From a virus: a stretch of DNA of 22,248 bases. Position numbers and translations under genes: made by a program. Where the stretch lies: IMG/VR virus record IMGVR_UViG_3300037507_003024, positions 1 to 22,248 of that record, one strand, 5' to 3'. Below, piece by piece: positions 9,863 through 19,098 of this stretch. The stretch's first letter is position 1, and each line of letters starts with the position of its first letter. Under the pieces are notes generated by a model. That model ran no database searches and was not told the origin of the DNA. It worked only from the letters and a program-made list of their open reading frames with translations.

Positions 9863-9893
9863 CACTACATAAACCAATCAAAAACAACTACAT

Positions 9894-11168
9894 ATGGCTG
9901 AGAATGTTGATATGCAGTCGTTTAACTTTAGTATCCAAGACACCATGGAAATGGGACTTGGAAATGCTGAACTTCTAAACGACCTAGTAGGTCCTGAAAC
10001 TGCTAGTGGAAATCCTGATGAACTTAAGGAGATTGTGAAAGAGGCAACCCCTCCCACAGCTCCTGAACCTGCTTCCCCTAAGGGAAAAGAAATTGCTGCT
10101 CCTGCTGGAGAGGCTGATTCACAGGAAACCCTTAAGAACTTCCTTCTGGACGCTACAGATGAGGAAGAGGAAACCACTGATAATCAGGAAGTTACACCAA
10201 AGAAAGCTGCTCCTAAAGCTCCAAAGGCTGGAGAGCTGAAACAAGAAGATGCTCCTGCTGATGAAGAACAACCAGCAGAAGAAGACTCTACACAATTTGG
10301 TGCTTTAGCAAAAGACCTGTTTAAACTAGGTGTATTCTCCAAAGATGAAGAAGAAGAGGATGTAAACATCTCCACTCCTGAAGAGTTTCTGGAAAGATTC
10401 CAGAATGAAAAGAAGAAGGGAGCTGTTGAGATGGTACAAAGCTTCATCGGACAATTTGGTGAAGACTATCAACAAGCATTCGATGCTATATTCGTAAAAG
10501 GCGTTAATCCCAAAGAGTATTTTGGGACATATAATAATGTAGTGAGTTTTGCCGAAATGGACTTGTCACAAGAGAATAATCAAGTGGCAGTGATTAAGCA
10601 AGCTCTGGCTGACCAAGGGTTTGAGCCTGAAGATGTTAACACAGAAGTTGAAAGACTCAAAAACTACGGTGATCTGGAATCTGTTGCTACCAAACACCAC
10701 AAGGTGCTGGTAAAGAAAGAAGCCCAAAAGCTTCAACAGATGGAACAGAAGGCTGAACAAGAACTTCAGCAAAGACAAGCGATTAAAAATCAATACATTA
10801 GTAACGTTCAGCAAGTCCTACAAGATAAGCTGAAAACTAAGGAGTTTGATGGTATTCCTATCAATCCCAAACTAGCTGGTGAACTACAAGACTTCCTACT
10901 GGTGGATAAGTACAAAACAGCGTCTGGAGAAACCCTCACAGACTTTGATAAAACTATCCTGGAATTGAAGAGACCTGAGAATCATGCAACGAAGGTGAAG
11001 GTTGCTCTCCTCCTCAAGATATTGGAAAAAGATCCCACTCTATCCACCATTCAAAAGACAGGCGTTACAAAACGATCTAACGAACTGTTTGGGGAGGTAG
11101 CCAGACAAGTGACAAAGGTTAAGAGCACACCTGCTCAACAGCCTAAGACAAATTCATGGTTCTTATAA
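9894..11168 (+). CDS. Scaffold-like capsid assembly protein (424 aa)
   Basis: The N-terminal third is low-complexity, rich in Ala, Pro, Glu and Asp (for example PPTAPEPASPKGKEIAAPAG and DEEEETT). The middle is acidic and helical (SKDEEEEDVNISTPEEFLER). The C-terminal half has coiled coils rich in Gln and Lys (VLVKKEAQKLQQMEQKAEQE). A disordered acidic, helical protein directly before the major capsid gene is the usual layout of a scaffolding protein, which shapes the prohead and leaves or is cleaved. No protease signature is seen. It has its own predicted promoter and lies 26 nt ahead of the capsid gene. Confidence 0.75.
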   Translation: MAENVDMQSFNFSIQDTMEMGLGNAELLNDLVGPETASGNPDELKEIVKEATPPTAPEPASPKGKEIAAPAGEADSQETLKNFLLDATDEEEETTDNQEVTPKKAAPKAPKAGELKQEDAPADEEQPAEEDSTQFGALAKDLFKLGVFSKDEEEEDVNISTPEEFLERFQNEKKKGAVEMVQSFIGQFGEDYQQAFDAIFVKGVNPKEYFGTYNNVVSFAEMDLSQENNQVAVIKQALADQGFEPEDVNTEVERLKNYGDLESVATKHHKVLVKKEAQKLQQMEQKAEQELQQRQAIKNQYISNVQQVLQDKLKTKEFDGIPINPKLAGELQDFLLVDKYKTASGETLTDFDKTILELKRPENHATKVKVALLLKILEKDPTLSTIQKTGVTKRSNELFGEVARQVTKVKSTPAQQPKTNSWFL

Positions 11169-11194: not shown

Positions 11195-12748
11195 ATGGCA
11201 ATTCAAACAATCCCAGGATTAACTGGCTTTACTTATGCCCGCGTGGCCTCTATGGACAAGCGTGCTGTAGGTAAACTCACTGATGCTAACCACCTGGAGA
11301 GCTTTCACTCAACTGAGCCTGCTGATTACGACAAGAAAATCATCAGCCTCTATACACAGAGCTCTCTGTATAGCAACGACTTCCTGGACATGATCAACAA
11401 GAGCACGCCTTATTACATTGATAATAATAGCGATGCTTGGAAATGGCAGGTGGCCGTTCCCTACAAATTCCCCAAAATCATTGATGTTCCAACTAGCACA
11501 GCTGAGCTGAGCAAGCCTGGTATTGATGGTCAAGAGTTCCAACTGATCCTCGACACTAACGAGTTCTCTAAGAACGCTATTGTGTCTGTAGGTTCTCGTC
11601 AGTATGGTCCTCGTTTCTATGTGATTAAAGATCCCGTTCCTTGGAACATGGGCTTCTTGTACACATTCACTTTGGTTAGCGACAATCCTACAGTGGATTT
11701 CGTTAGCTCTACATTCCTTCAGTATGGTATTGAGCTTGAGCTGGTAGATGCTGCAATCGGTGAATTCGATCAGGATCTGCTGGGTCTTCCTCGTTTGGGA
11801 GAGCAAATCACTATGTTTGAATCTTTGGGTTCTGCATATGGTTTCGAGCACAAAATCACTGAATGGGCTGATGACAAAATGATGCGTGACTCTGCTGGAC
11901 GTCCTTTGGATATCCTGGTGTATGCTCCTCAGCGTCGCAATCAGCTTCCCCTCACTCGTAATGATGTTAAGTGGGAGCCATTTATTGAGTTCTGGATGCG
12001 TAAGTCTATGCTTGAGTTGAAAGTTAAGCGTATGATTTGGTCTCGTCCTGGTACTGTTAAGACTAACGGTAGCAAGCAAGAACTTAAGCGTACTTCTGCT
12101 GGTGTTTACCACCGCATGCGTAACAACGGTAACCTGGTTCAATACAACCGTGGTGAATTTTCTGCCAACCTGATTCGTTCTGTGTTTGGTGACCTGTTCT
12201 ATCGTCGTGTGGATGTTAAAGATCGTCGTGTTAAAATGTACACTAACGAAGCTGGATTTGACGTGTTCCAACAAGCTTTGAAGACAGACGCTTTGAACAG
12301 TGGTCTCACCTTCATGGCTGATAGCGGAAACCGTTATATGCAGGGAGAAGGACAACACATCACTTACAACTTTGCATTCGATGCAATGGTTACTCGTGAG
12401 ACTGGTCGTGTTGAACTCATCCACCTGAAAGAACTTGACCTGCCTCAGTCTAACCTGGAATTTGGACAGAACAAGAAGTCAACCCCTGTATTCATGGTGT
12501 TTGACGTATCTCCAATGTCTGATGGTTCTTTGGTTAACAACATCCGTGAGGTGCGTATGAAGGGTGCTCCTTCTATGACTTGGGGATATATTGATGGAAC
12601 TCGCCACCACTTAGGCTTTGCTAAGTCTCAGGGTATGAGCTCTGCCAACAAGTTCCCTGGTTACGAGATCTGGATGAAAGACCGTTGTGATGTATTCATT
12701 GAAGACCTGTCTCGTACAGTGTTGATTGAAGAAATCCCACAGTTCTAA
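11195..12748 (+). CDS. Major capsid protein, HK97-type fold expected (517 aa)
   Basis: The protein begins MAIQTIPGLTGFTYARVASM and contains YIDNNSDAWKWQVAVPYKFP and FDVSPMSDGSLVNNIREVRM, in the style of crAss-like major capsid proteins, and has the right length and place (after portal and scaffold). All 30 arginine codons are CGT or CGC, none AGA or AGG, unlike its neighbours, as expected for the most abundant virion protein. It is one of the few genes here with a good ribosome site: AAGGA at 11183-11187, 7 nt before ATG. A long frame on the opposite strand is a by-product of this codon bias. The HK97 fold is known for the family, not visible from sequence. Confidence 0.9.
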   Translation: MAIQTIPGLTGFTYARVASMDKRAVGKLTDANHLESFHSTEPADYDKKIISLYTQSSLYSNDFLDMINKSTPYYIDNNSDAWKWQVAVPYKFPKIIDVPTSTAELSKPGIDGQEFQLILDTNEFSKNAIVSVGSRQYGPRFYVIKDPVPWNMGFLYTFTLVSDNPTVDFVSSTFLQYGIELELVDAAIGEFDQDLLGLPRLGEQITMFESLGSAYGFEHKITEWADDKMMRDSAGRPLDILVYAPQRRNQLPLTRNDVKWEPFIEFWMRKSMLELKVKRMIWSRPGTVKTNGSKQELKRTSAGVYHRMRNNGNLVQYNRGEFSANLIRSVFGDLFYRRVDVKDRRVKMYTNEAGFDVFQQALKTDALNSGLTFMADSGNRYMQGEGQHITYNFAFDAMVTRETGRVELIHLKELDLPQSNLEFGQNKKSTPVFMVFDVSPMSDGSLVNNIREVRMKGAPSMTWGYIDGTRHHLGFAKSQGMSSANKFPGYEIWMKDRCDVFIEDLSRTVLIEEIPQF

Positions 12749-12920
12749 TAAGACAACAGCTTTACGCTGTTCTTATAAACTACCGAGAAGAGAATGCCCC
12801 CCACACTTCAGAGTGGGGGAGCTCTTCTCAAACTACAGAGATGGGGATTGGGAAATTCCCAATTGCCATGAGGTTCAGTCCTCACATCTCTGCAAATAAA
12901 CCAAACAAAATAAACTACAT
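12749..12920 (+). ncRNA. Structured RNA region after the capsid gene, with tRNA-like three-way junction
   Basis: Three structures follow one another. Hairpin 1: AACAGC-TTTAC-GCTGTT (12755-12771). Hairpin 2: outer stem GAGAAGAG/CTCTTCTC (12785-12792 with 12822-12829) and inner stem CCCCCAC/GTGGGGG. Element 3: an 8-bp stem CAGAGATG/CATCTCTG (12836-12843 with 12885-12892) closing two hairpins, ATTGGG-AAATT-CCCAAT and TGAGG-TTCAGT-CCTCA; the second resembles a tRNA T arm. AAACTAC precedes elements 2 and 3 and also the next start codon. It does not make a normal tRNA (one arm missing, no CCA). It may stabilise or process the capsid message, or act as an independent RNA. Confidence 0.6.
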
Positions 12921-13889
12921 ATGGGCAAGATTGGAAAAGTCTCAACAATCAAGAAAGAGTATAACAACTCACAACTTCAGACTATGCAAGGTGGTCTTGC
13001 ATTAAGAGGATTCACACGTATTCCTGGAACAGGGGTGTTTAAGTATCCTTACAGAGAACTAGATGGTAAATACAGAACAGGACTTGATCCTGATGCTGCT
13101 TACATCCGCAGAATTCAAGACCCTCTTGAGAGAGAAATGGAAATTGAGCGTGTTACAGCTCTGAAACAAAGACTTGAAAAAGATCTTGGAGATATTGATT
13201 TAGGTCCTCGTTCTCAGTTTTGGAACTATGGACTTTCTACATCAAACCAAGATTCACTACACGTTCAGCCTGTAAAACTGCTGGATGGTGATAACTTCTT
13301 TGACTTAGGTATTCCCTTCCAAGAGCTAGCTTTTGCATGGTTGCGTGTGCATCCTACAATTGCTTCTAGCTACCAAGCTTGGGAGCGTGGTGAGTTTCCT
13401 GCTGACACTCAGTTCTATGTAGCTGATGATGAAGTGGAAAATGCTGTTCTGTTTAAGAAGAAGCAACTTATCAATAAGGCTATTGTCAAGTTTGACAGTA
13501 TGACTCCTGAGAAGAAAAAGAAAGTGGCACGTTTGTTGGGACTGCCTGTTACAGACAACACTACAGAAGAAGCTGTGTACAACCAGGTTGATAACTTGTT
13601 GAAACAGACAGAGTTCAAGAATGGTAAATACCAGGGACTCTCTCCTGTAGAAGTGTTCAATAGATATGCAGACATGAGAGAAAACTTGCTCCATATTAAA
13701 GACTTGGTTAAACAAGCTCTCACCCACTCCATCTACAGAGCTAGACCTAGTGGTAAGATTTACGAGGGTGAGTTTGAAGTGGCCAAGGATGAAGATGATT
13801 TAATTAAAACGCTTGCTGACGATGATAATCAGGACATGCTCCTGACTCTCGAAGGTAAGCTGAAAACTAAGAAACTAGCTGCCTTATGA
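12921..13889 (+). CDS. Conserved crAss-like virion protein behind the capsid gene (322 aa)
   Basis: The protein reads MGKIGKVSTIKKEYNNSQLQ, later FTRIPGTGVFKYPYRELDGK, a charged helix LEREMEIERVTALKQRLEKD and, near the end, a helical, acidic tail. No enzymatic motif is visible. In crAss-like phages a protein of this type follows the major capsid gene and is taken to be a virion protein; whether it is an inner capsid, cargo or accessory shell protein I cannot say. Its leader (AACTACAT before ATGG) is identical to that of the scaffold gene. It overlaps the next start by 4 nt (ATGA). Confidence 0.7.
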   Translation: MGKIGKVSTIKKEYNNSQLQTMQGGLALRGFTRIPGTGVFKYPYRELDGKYRTGLDPDAAYIRRIQDPLEREMEIERVTALKQRLEKDLGDIDLGPRSQFWNYGLSTSNQDSLHVQPVKLLDGDNFFDLGIPFQELAFAWLRVHPTIASSYQAWERGEFPADTQFYVADDEVENAVLFKKKQLINKAIVKFDSMTPEKKKKVARLLGLPVTDNTTEEAVYNQVDNLLKQTEFKNGKYQGLSPVEVFNRYADMRENLLHIKDLVKQALTHSIYRARPSGKIYEGEFEVAKDEDDLIKTLADDDNQDMLLTLEGKLKTKKLAAL

Positions 13890-15808: not shown

Positions 15809-15842
15809 TAGTAGGAAGCTAGGAAACAAAATCATATAACCT

Positions 15843-15890
15843 AAGCCAGAGGTGAGAGGATACAAACTCAGATCCTCTGGCTTATTTATT
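15843..15890 (+). terminator. Intrinsic terminator inside the structural block
   Basis: AAGCCAGAGG (15843-15852) pairs perfectly over 10 bp with CCTCTGGCTT (15874-15883); TGAG and CTCA extend the stem inside the loop. TTATTTATT follows. It ends only 10-17 nt before the ATG at 15900, with no room for a new promoter, so it probably acts as a partial terminator reducing transcription of the genes behind it. Confidence 0.8.
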
Positions 15891-18012: not shown

Positions 18013-18507
18013 ATGTCTTGCAATTGCACACCCACTACCCCTGTAGATCCCTGTAACGTACAACCTATTGCAACAAATAATGTTTCGTACAGTGGTCCCA
18101 ATCTCTCCTGCACAGGAATTCATACATGTGATACAGTTACTGTTGCTTTTGAAAAGGTGAATGAGGAGATTTGTGACTTACAAAGCGAACTGACTGCTCT
18201 TCAGAACCTTGTAAATAGTTTGACAACTACCACCACAACTTCCACTACAAGTTCTACAACTACCACCACAACAACAATACTTTGTCCTTCTTGCAGTTTC
18301 TACTCTGTGACAAATGAAAACCTCACTCCTGCAGAAGTTATATACTATGCCTGCGGAGGGTTTTACAACACTGCTGTTGTAGGTAGCTTTAGTACAATTT
18401 ACATATGTGCTTGTACAGGCACTGTGGTGATTCCTCCTATTCCTGGCGTATCTTCTGCAGATTTGGGAGATTGTCCTACAACAACAACCACCACAACACT
18501 TATCTAA
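18013..18507 (+). CDS. Fibre-like protein with polythreonine linkers (164 aa)
   Basis: Order: a Cys-rich N-terminal anchor (MSCNCTPTTPVDPCNVQPIA; NVSYSGPNLSCTGIHTCDTV) similar to that of the collar protein, a short coiled coil (EEICDLQSELTALQNLVNSL, residues 50-69), an 18-residue Thr/Ser linker (residues 71-88), a small Cys-rich module (CPSCSFYSVTNEN; YYACGGFYNTAV; YICACTG), and a second short Thr run at the C-terminus. The layout is a trimeric stalk bearing a small tip, on the surface of head or tail. It lies 20 nt behind the collar gene and 6 nt before the next. Confidence 0.75.
   Translation: MSCNCTPTTPVDPCNVQPIATNNVSYSGPNLSCTGIHTCDTVTVAFEKVNEEICDLQSELTALQNLVNSLTTTTTTSTTSSTTTTTTTILCPSCSFYSVTNENLTPAEVIYYACGGFYNTAVVGSFSTIYICACTGTVVIPPIPGVSSADLGDCPTTTTTTTLI
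18223..18276 (+). repeat. Thr/Ser-codon repeat tract
   Basis: Eighteen consecutive Thr or Ser codons, mostly ACA, ACT and ACC, with the pattern ACAACTACCACCACAACT and then imperfect copies. It encodes the linker of the protein at 18013-18507 and is related in composition to the tract at 18742-18798. Confidence 0.7.
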
Positions 18508-18513
18508 TAAACC

Positions 18514-19020
18514 ATGATAGTAACAATTACACTAACAGTTGCAGGGTCTGAAACAGGACCTTTCAACCTGTATTCAGATGTTGATGGATACACAGCAGCC
18601 TTTGAAACAGGTGTGGCTAAAGCATCTCTTTTGGCTGGATATACAAGTAATCTTGTTCCTAACGGAACCACCATTATCAGAGTGATGTCAGACAATCCTC
18701 CTCTGTGTACAAACTTTATTGATATTCCCATAGTGCCCTGCACAACCACCACTACAACCACTACAACCACCACTACAACCACCACTACAACTACCACTGC
18801 TGCTCCTTGTGTTTGCTATTTCATTCTGAATGAAACAGGAGGATCACTGGATTACACTTATACACCTTGTGGAGGTGAGTCTGTGACTAATTCACTGGGT
18901 GCTGGTCAGAACGTACAGGTGTGCTCAGCATCATCTCCAACAGGAGCTTCCTTAACCATAGCTCCTTGCTCTTCTGCTACAAGCTGTACAAGTGACGGAG
19001 AATGTGAGGGTTGCACCTAA
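18514..19020 (+). CDS. Fibre-like protein with 19-threonine linker and Cys-rich tip (168 aa)
   Basis: The N-terminal domain (MIVTITLTVAGSETGPFNLY, SDVDGYTAAF, VPNGTTIIRVMSD) is a beta-rich module often found in phages of Bacteroidota. Then come 19 threonines in a row (residues 77-95) and a C-terminal module CVCYFILNETGG, YTYTPCGGESVT, QVCSASS that aligns in layout with the tip of the protein before it, ending in more cysteines. The linker is built from imperfect 12-bp repeats. The linker may be O-glycosylated by host enzymes; that is speculation. It is the last gene before a double terminator. Confidence 0.75.
   Translation: MIVTITLTVAGSETGPFNLYSDVDGYTAAFETGVAKASLLAGYTSNLVPNGTTIIRVMSDNPPLCTNFIDIPIVPCTTTTTTTTTTTTTTTTTTTAAPCVCYFILNETGGSLDYTYTPCGGESVTNSLGAGQNVQVCSASSPTGASLTIAPCSSATSCTSDGECEGCT
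18742..18798 (+). repeat. 12-bp minisatellite coding for polythreonine
   Basis: The unit ACAACCACCACT repeats nearly five times (one copy lacks a codon, the last has one base changed), giving 19 Thr codons. Unit gain or loss keeps the frame and would change the linker length by four residues. Confidence 0.85.
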
Positions 19021-19035
19021 TAAATGAATATACAA

Positions 19036-19098
19036 AAGCCCTGTTTGTTGGTTTTCAGGGCTTCTCCCTGGGGTTTCTACCCTGGGGAGTTTTTATTT
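19036..19098 (+). terminator. Tandem terminator closing the fibre genes
   Basis: Two adjoining hairpins: AAGCCCTG/CAGGGCTT (19036-19043 with 19056-19063, 12-nt loop), then CTCCCTGGGGT/ACCCTGGGGAG (19064-19074 with 19079-19089, 11 pairs including two G-T, loop TTCT). TTTTTATTT follows the second. Together they make the strongest stop signal in the window. Confidence 0.9.

Follow-up and report, generated by a model that had tools for sequence, protein, structure and literature searches.

A T-loop-like three-way-junction RNA behind the major capsid gene in a group of crAss-like phages

The T stem and the acceptor stem of a tRNA together make up 12 layers, and the T loop is 7 nt long, of the pattern UUCRANY, closed by the pair G53-C61. 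In the T-loop fold residues 1 and 5 form a U..A pair, residue 3 finds its partner in a G from a different loop and a purine sits between residues 4 and 5 (PMC4810234). RNase Z grips the elbow of the tRNA and cuts precursors that lack CCA, CCA being an anti-determinant (PMC4810234, PMC4919913). In crAss001 the host polymerase is believed to transcribe the late genes (PMC8375218). Behind the major capsid protein (MCP) gene of crAss001, cr10_1, csAssE-Sib and phi17:2, and of the relatives L088, L089, L091 and L092, we found by eye a hairpin with T-rich sequence after it. Lbo-JY46, L085 and L087, also judged by eye, have neither a terminator nor a strong structure there, so a phage can do without a 3' device behind this gene. 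The locus described here, on a 22-kb virus contig from IMG/VR (the window, 22,248 nt), carries a three-way junction behind its MCP gene.

The gap behind the capsid gene and its fold

The sequence-only reading had called this phage crAss-like, which holds in the broad sense because of its MCP family and its terminase. The MCP belongs to phrog_11589, as does that of Bacteroides phage crAss001, and the terminase is 39% identical to that of Leptolyngbya phage Lbo-JY46, 32% to that of Cellulophaga phi17:2 and ~25-28% to those of crAss-like phages. By MCP, Lbo-JY46 is the sole match among GenBank phages (26%), and blastn against GenBank phages gave no match. The genes run in the order terminase, portal, putative scaffold (a guess from gene position), MCP and then more head genes. 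No RNA polymerase (PF04997) was found in four large contigs, a result of little weight since these may be fragments and phage polymerases diverge. The features around the capsid gene, all on the + strand, are as follows.

11195-12748, + strand: MCP gene, 517 aa, phrog_11589 major head protein (E 1.5e-31), directly upstream of the element
12749-12775, + strand: H1, a hairpin over a second in-frame stop codon, from the minimum free energy (MFE) fold; variable and dispensable
12785-12829, + strand: H2, a long hairpin with outer stem GAGAAGAG/CTCTTCTC and a C-rich inner stem
12830-12834, + strand: unpaired linker AAACT from H2 to H3; a similar short linker in most relatives
12835-12893, + strand: H3, the three-way-junction RNA with its flanking bases A12835 and C12893; matched by covariance model R2 at 65.1 bits
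12836-12843/12885-12892, + strand: stem P1 of H3
12844-12867, + strand: stem P2 of H3
12865, + strand: invariant G that bulges from the 3' strand of P2
12869-12884, + strand: stem P3 of H3
12874-12879, + strand: T-loop-like hexaloop UUCAGU of P3 (consensus UUCRRU), nearly fixed
12880-12892, + strand: 13-nt 3' strand from the hexaloop to the end of P1
12894-12920, + strand: A-rich unstructured leader AAACCAA...AACTACAT, with conserved tails in relatives and a motif shared with the leader of the gene at 9894
12921-13889, + strand: next gene, 322 aa, phrog_16383 (function unknown), the downstream neighbour in relatives too

A gap of 172 nt separates the MCP stop codon (12748) from the start codon of the next gene (12921), and it folds far more stably than shuffled sequence. 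Its MFE is -62.7 kcal/mol, against -33.9 +- 3.9 kcal/mol for 200 dinucleotide shuffles (z -7.3), and among 554 windows of 120 nt along the sequence the lowest z falls on this gap. Folded alone, H2 has a z of -5.4 and H3 of -4.1. Three structures in succession, the last a 57-nt three-way junction with a perfect 8-bp closing stem and a hairpin TGAGG-TTCAGT-CCTCA, had been described from the letters. That description and its coordinates are correct: the MFE fold shows all three, with the junction at 12836-12892 and the closing stem P1 formed by CAGAGATG/CATCTCTG. It holds seven of the eight P1 pairs, because the eighth G can pair in P2 instead.

The three structures are unequal among relatives, and in this respect the early description needs to be narrowed. 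H1 is not conserved, being absent in L069 and missing or swapped for unrelated hairpins in some other relatives. H2 is kept in most relatives, with 12-19 predicted pairs across the gaps, often an internal loop, and two-sided changes at 10 of its 13 pairs; unrelated hairpins stand in its place in a few (L095, L118). L078 carries an insertion of ~110 nt between H2 and H3 (about 1825-1935), which contains inverted repeats and has no Rfam match. Since H1 may be absent, H2 may be replaced and ~110 nt may be inserted between H2 and H3, the core of the element is H3.

Two observations concern the flanking parts. The H2 loop (12804-12811 in the window) is composed in relatives of C 0.47, T 0.27, A 0.22 and G 0.04, and CCUCC, the anti-Shine-Dalgarno core, occurs in 18 of 94 such loops. 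The leader AAACCAA...AACTACAT-ATG occurs twice, at 9865-9893 and at 12894-12920, before the genes at 9894 and 12921, and AAACCAA also precedes 19205 and 21183; this shared A-rich leader is probably a translation-start leader without a Shine-Dalgarno sequence.

Conservation, strand and place of H3

Relatives were collected by MCP searches of IMG/VR, which gave 269 loci, many of them repeats of the same contigs, and hence 110 distinct gaps behind the MCP gene. The MCP proteins of L001-L080 are at least 95% identical to that of the window. While the MCP DNA identity falls to 80%, the gap diverges far more and keeps its fold: each of the 110 distinct gaps contains the three-way junction. A descriptor that asks for P1 around a hairpin with a T-loop-like hexaloop matches 108 of them, and the remaining two (L050 and L069) were caught by the covariance model. 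The stricter descriptor, which allows a TTCRRT loop only, has 99 matches in 109 real gaps versus 0.05 per 109 shuffled ones.

Pairing is maintained by compensatory change. P1 itself has UA, GC and AU at one position; its outer pairs CAGA/UCUG are nearly fixed and its inner pairs covary among 73 distinct sequences. In the alignment of these 73 H3 copies, which was made by fitting them to the model and is biased in its favour, two-sided pair changes number 286 cells versus 74 +- 7 in shuffles, and 93.8% of the cells are paired versus 34-50% for slid pairings. A plain MAFFT alignment of 24 diverse sequences gave 137 two-sided changes over H2 and H3 versus 40.5 +- 4.9 in shuffles. On the MCP tree, parsimony counts ~167 double changes over 21 pairs versus 16-44 for slid pairings, where recombination between the MCP gene and the gap would inflate both the real and the slid figures. 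The original description would have fallen had P1 carried substitutions without compensation, or had the gap been unconserved and no more stable than shuffled sequence; both were examined, and neither was seen. G-U pairs in H3 outnumber A-C pairs by 115 to 16, therefore the selected molecule is the + strand RNA; the same count opposes a minus-strand element or a DNA cruciform.

The fold extends beyond the reach of the model. L084 (MCP 89%), L095 and L118 were missed by R2, and their folds have P1, a P3 with UUCGAU and, counted by eye, ~12 nt between this loop and the P1 end. The bulged G is seen in L095 and is not clear in L084 and L118. The L084 contig sits in a Tissierellales MAG, which is weak host evidence as the binning may be contamination. 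No cellular homologue was found in 149 genomes of the phylum of that MAG, a weak test because the phylum may not be that of the host.

H3 is a single-copy element with a fixed place. A search for further copies had been proposed with the original description, and the H3 model matches exactly once in each of 45 records of up to 115 kb, so that we reject a repeat or mobile element. Scanning IMG/VR with a pattern turned up 68 stretches; the MCP end lies upstream in 67 of them, the match in the 68th lies 33 nt from the contig start, and the N-terminus of the same downstream gene follows all 68. These observations bear on whether H3 might be freed as a separate stable small RNA that acts in trans, either as a structural RNA of the head like phi29 pRNA or as a regulator. 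The compact, self-contained fold with its invariant unpaired bases, the adjoining head genes and the variation of H1, H2 and the linkers independently of H3 would all suit such an RNA. We nevertheless regard it as rather improbable, as the module has no convincing promoter or terminator of its own and is tied to the MCP 3' end in all tested records, which an RNA acting in trans would not need.

Likeness to tRNA and to known RNA families

The idea that H3 is a tRNA lacking one arm is partly borne out. The junction, a T-arm-like hairpin with UUCRRU and a fixed distance of 12-13 nt are there; a D arm and an anticodon arm are not, and the loop has 6 nt. The hexaloop reads U in 72, U in 73, C in 70, a purine in 73, A or G in 72 and U in 69 of the 73 sequences, with A in 49 and G in 23 at position 5. 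It is held under C-G, G-C, U-G, U-A and A-U closing pairs (CG 54, GC 14, others 5). P3 has 3-5 bp in nearly all copies, and the base after it is a purine (A 66, G 7). P2 has two parts, a short lower one and an upper one of 7-8 bp that is free to vary, and the bulged G lies on its 3' strand (73/73). The bases flanking P1 are A in 69 and C in 72 of the 73. Along the 3' strand, the distance between the loop and the P1 end is 12 nt in 31 sequences and 13 nt in 42, with no other value, and P1, P3 and the linker trade lengths while this distance stays the same; it agrees with the 12 layers of T stem plus acceptor stem.

Measured against the T-loop anatomy, H3 has the U at loop position 1, the C at position 3 and, in the bulged G, a candidate partner for the latter. 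Since residue 3 of a T loop pairs with a G elsewhere in the tRNA (PMC4810234), the bulged G is the obvious partner of the loop C, and this contact is a prediction; the three copies with U at position 3 would still allow a G-U pair. The classical reverse-Hoogsteen U-A pair of the T loop would be weakened, because position 5 is G in one third of the copies.

Membership in the tRNA or tmRNA families does not hold. ARAGORN finds no tRNA or tmRNA in the window, and neither does Rfam even at E 10 locally; the consensus of 73 sequences has P1, P2 and P3 only and leaves no place for a D arm, an anticodon arm or a tmRNA tag frame, the closing pair is not fixed as G53-C61 and no CCA follows H3. Model R2 matched none of the phi17:2 tRNAs in L083. 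No Rfam family, ribozymes, viral tRNA-like structures and mascRNA included, matches in the window, nor in L078, L084, L095 and L118 at E 1. SNORA55 reached 30.1 of 45 bits, below the gathering score, and is read as a chance match. Several explanations of the loop were also rejected: kissing of a palindromic UCGA loop, as the UUCAGU, UUCAAU and UUCGGU copies lose the palindrome; a cUUCGg tetraloop, for most copies (UUCGAU, UUCAGU); and pairing of the hexaloop elsewhere in the gap, as AYYGAA occurs only 5 times in 109 gaps.

The same constraints weigh on two further explanations. An unrecognised self-cleaving ribozyme of the three-way-junction type would account for a small junction with a few invariant unpaired bases between two messages; we consider it highly improbable, with too few invariant core bases and no Rfam ribozyme match. 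A plain 3' barrier, in which hairpin stability alone would count (an RNase III site with an exonuclease block, or a weak terminator without U) and the tRNA likeness would be incidental, fits H2, which alone is very stable and can be replaced by unrelated hairpins. Stability does not explain the G bulged in 73/73 copies, the UUCRRU loop under differing closing pairs or the 12-13 nt ruler, and we find this explanation improbable.

We found no description of such an element in a search of the open literature. On its sequence and fold, with no Rfam entry and no tRNA identity, we classify H3 as a new RNA family, and as a device it would be a variant of the tRNA-like or 3'-end elements. It is universal in this mostly uncultured group of crAss-like phages, and the group is common: at least ~600 IMG/VR stretches matched the capsid patterns. 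Such a junction, T-loop-like and with its bulged G fixed, may also serve as a useful small model of tRNA-elbow mimicry.

A putative role at the 3' end of the capsid mRNA

An intrinsic terminator can be ruled out for this place, as none of the 110 distinct gaps has a hairpin with a U-tract, and none lies on the + strand of 12749-12920. The window has a strong intrinsic terminator at 19064-19089 (CTCCCTGGGG...CCCTGGGGAG TTTTTATTT), behind the gene ending at 19020, hence the phage uses U-tract terminators elsewhere. A perfect 11-bp inverted repeat TAAGCCAGAGG/CCTCTGGCTTA at 15842-15884, between genes and followed by TTTATTT, is likely another terminator. The region 18013-19020 holds two adjacent genes with long threonine runs, like low-complexity linkers.

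The reading with the best support gives the element a task at the capsid mRNA 3' end, because most of the inspected counterparts have terminator-like hairpins there and the gaps of this group have none with a U-tract (0/110). We lean, a little beyond even chances, towards a cis-acting element that ends or insulates the capsid mRNA. The proposal that the structure sets the 3' end of that message had been made from the sequence; the place fits it, given the terminator-like hairpins at the same place in crAss001, cr10_1, csAssE-Sib, phi17:2 and uncultured relatives, and the function itself we infer.

The mechanism we envisage would run as follows. During transcription of the late operon, the RNA behind the MCP stop codon would fold into H2 and H3. 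P3 would stack on P1 into a minihelix of 12-13 layers like that of the tRNA acceptor and T arm, and the invariant bulged G of P2 would hold the T-loop-like hexaloop. The compact fold might then either stop exonucleases from the 3' side or be cut beside P1 by a host enzyme. The capsid message would thereby end at a defined and stable 3' terminus, and the genes downstream would go on as a separate RNA with its own leader. RNase Z would be the best tRNA-type candidate because H3 lacks CCA and is followed by A/U-rich sequence, with RNase III acting at H2 as an alternative; H3 is a poor match to RNase P determinants, lacking CCA and having A at -1 and C in the discriminator position.

Hairpins in the messages for coat or ribosomal proteins can be bound by those very proteins, and H3 could instead be a cis-regulatory leader of the downstream gene, an operator at which a phage protein or some other ligand would adjust how much of the next head protein is translated. 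This is the main rival because H3 mostly ends 24-32 nt before the start codon, a fairly constant spacing that would suit a leader and counts against the 3'-end reading. The fixed loop, bulge and outer P1 pairs also resemble a binding site, and the same gene always follows. However the spacing tolerates insertions up to ~114 nt, the A-rich leader at 9894 works without such a structure, and related phages have terminators at the same place; we judge a leader function unlikely.

Within the 3'-end reading, the boldest form would be that a DNA phage carries a mimic of the tRNA minihelix in its late message, which a host tRNA-processing enzyme would cut and which would replace a terminator in forming the 3' end of the capsid mRNA, a counterpart of mascRNA-type 3'-end formation. 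We put this forward tentatively and with more doubt than belief. It raises a specific question, open to a cheap test, namely whether a phage message is cut by a tRNA-processing enzyme. The data suggest that in this group capsid output is set at the RNA level in a manner not shared by its relatives.

H3 shares with the tRNA acceptor/T-arm minihelix and its T loop a short stem, a U-U-C-R-(A/G) loop at a distance of 12-13 nt to where the closing stem ends, and a G available for loop residue 3. It differs from a tRNA in having no D and anticodon arms and no CCA, in the 6-nt loop and in the variable closing pair, and P2 with its bulged G stands in the place of the other arms. Viral tRNA-like structures and the mascRNA of MALAT1 likewise have a tRNA-like fold at a 3' boundary that is a candidate substrate for tRNA enzymes, but their covariance models do not match and H3 lies between two cistrons of a DNA phage. 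The pRNA of phi29 is likewise a phage-encoded RNA that has a three-way junction and is connected with head functions, whereas H3 is tied to the MCP 3' end, is not a separate gene and has no Rfam match. H2 resembles the RNase III hairpins in phage messages such as those of T7 in being intercistronic, of 12-19 predicted bp and often with an internal loop; it differs in not being the conserved core. The terminator hairpins behind the MCP gene of crAss001, cr10_1, csAssE-Sib and phi17:2 are, as here, a stable structure that comes straight after the MCP stop codon and precedes the next head gene, but none of the 110 gaps of the window group has a U-tract, and the structure there is a specific three-way junction with a near-invariant loop and bulge.
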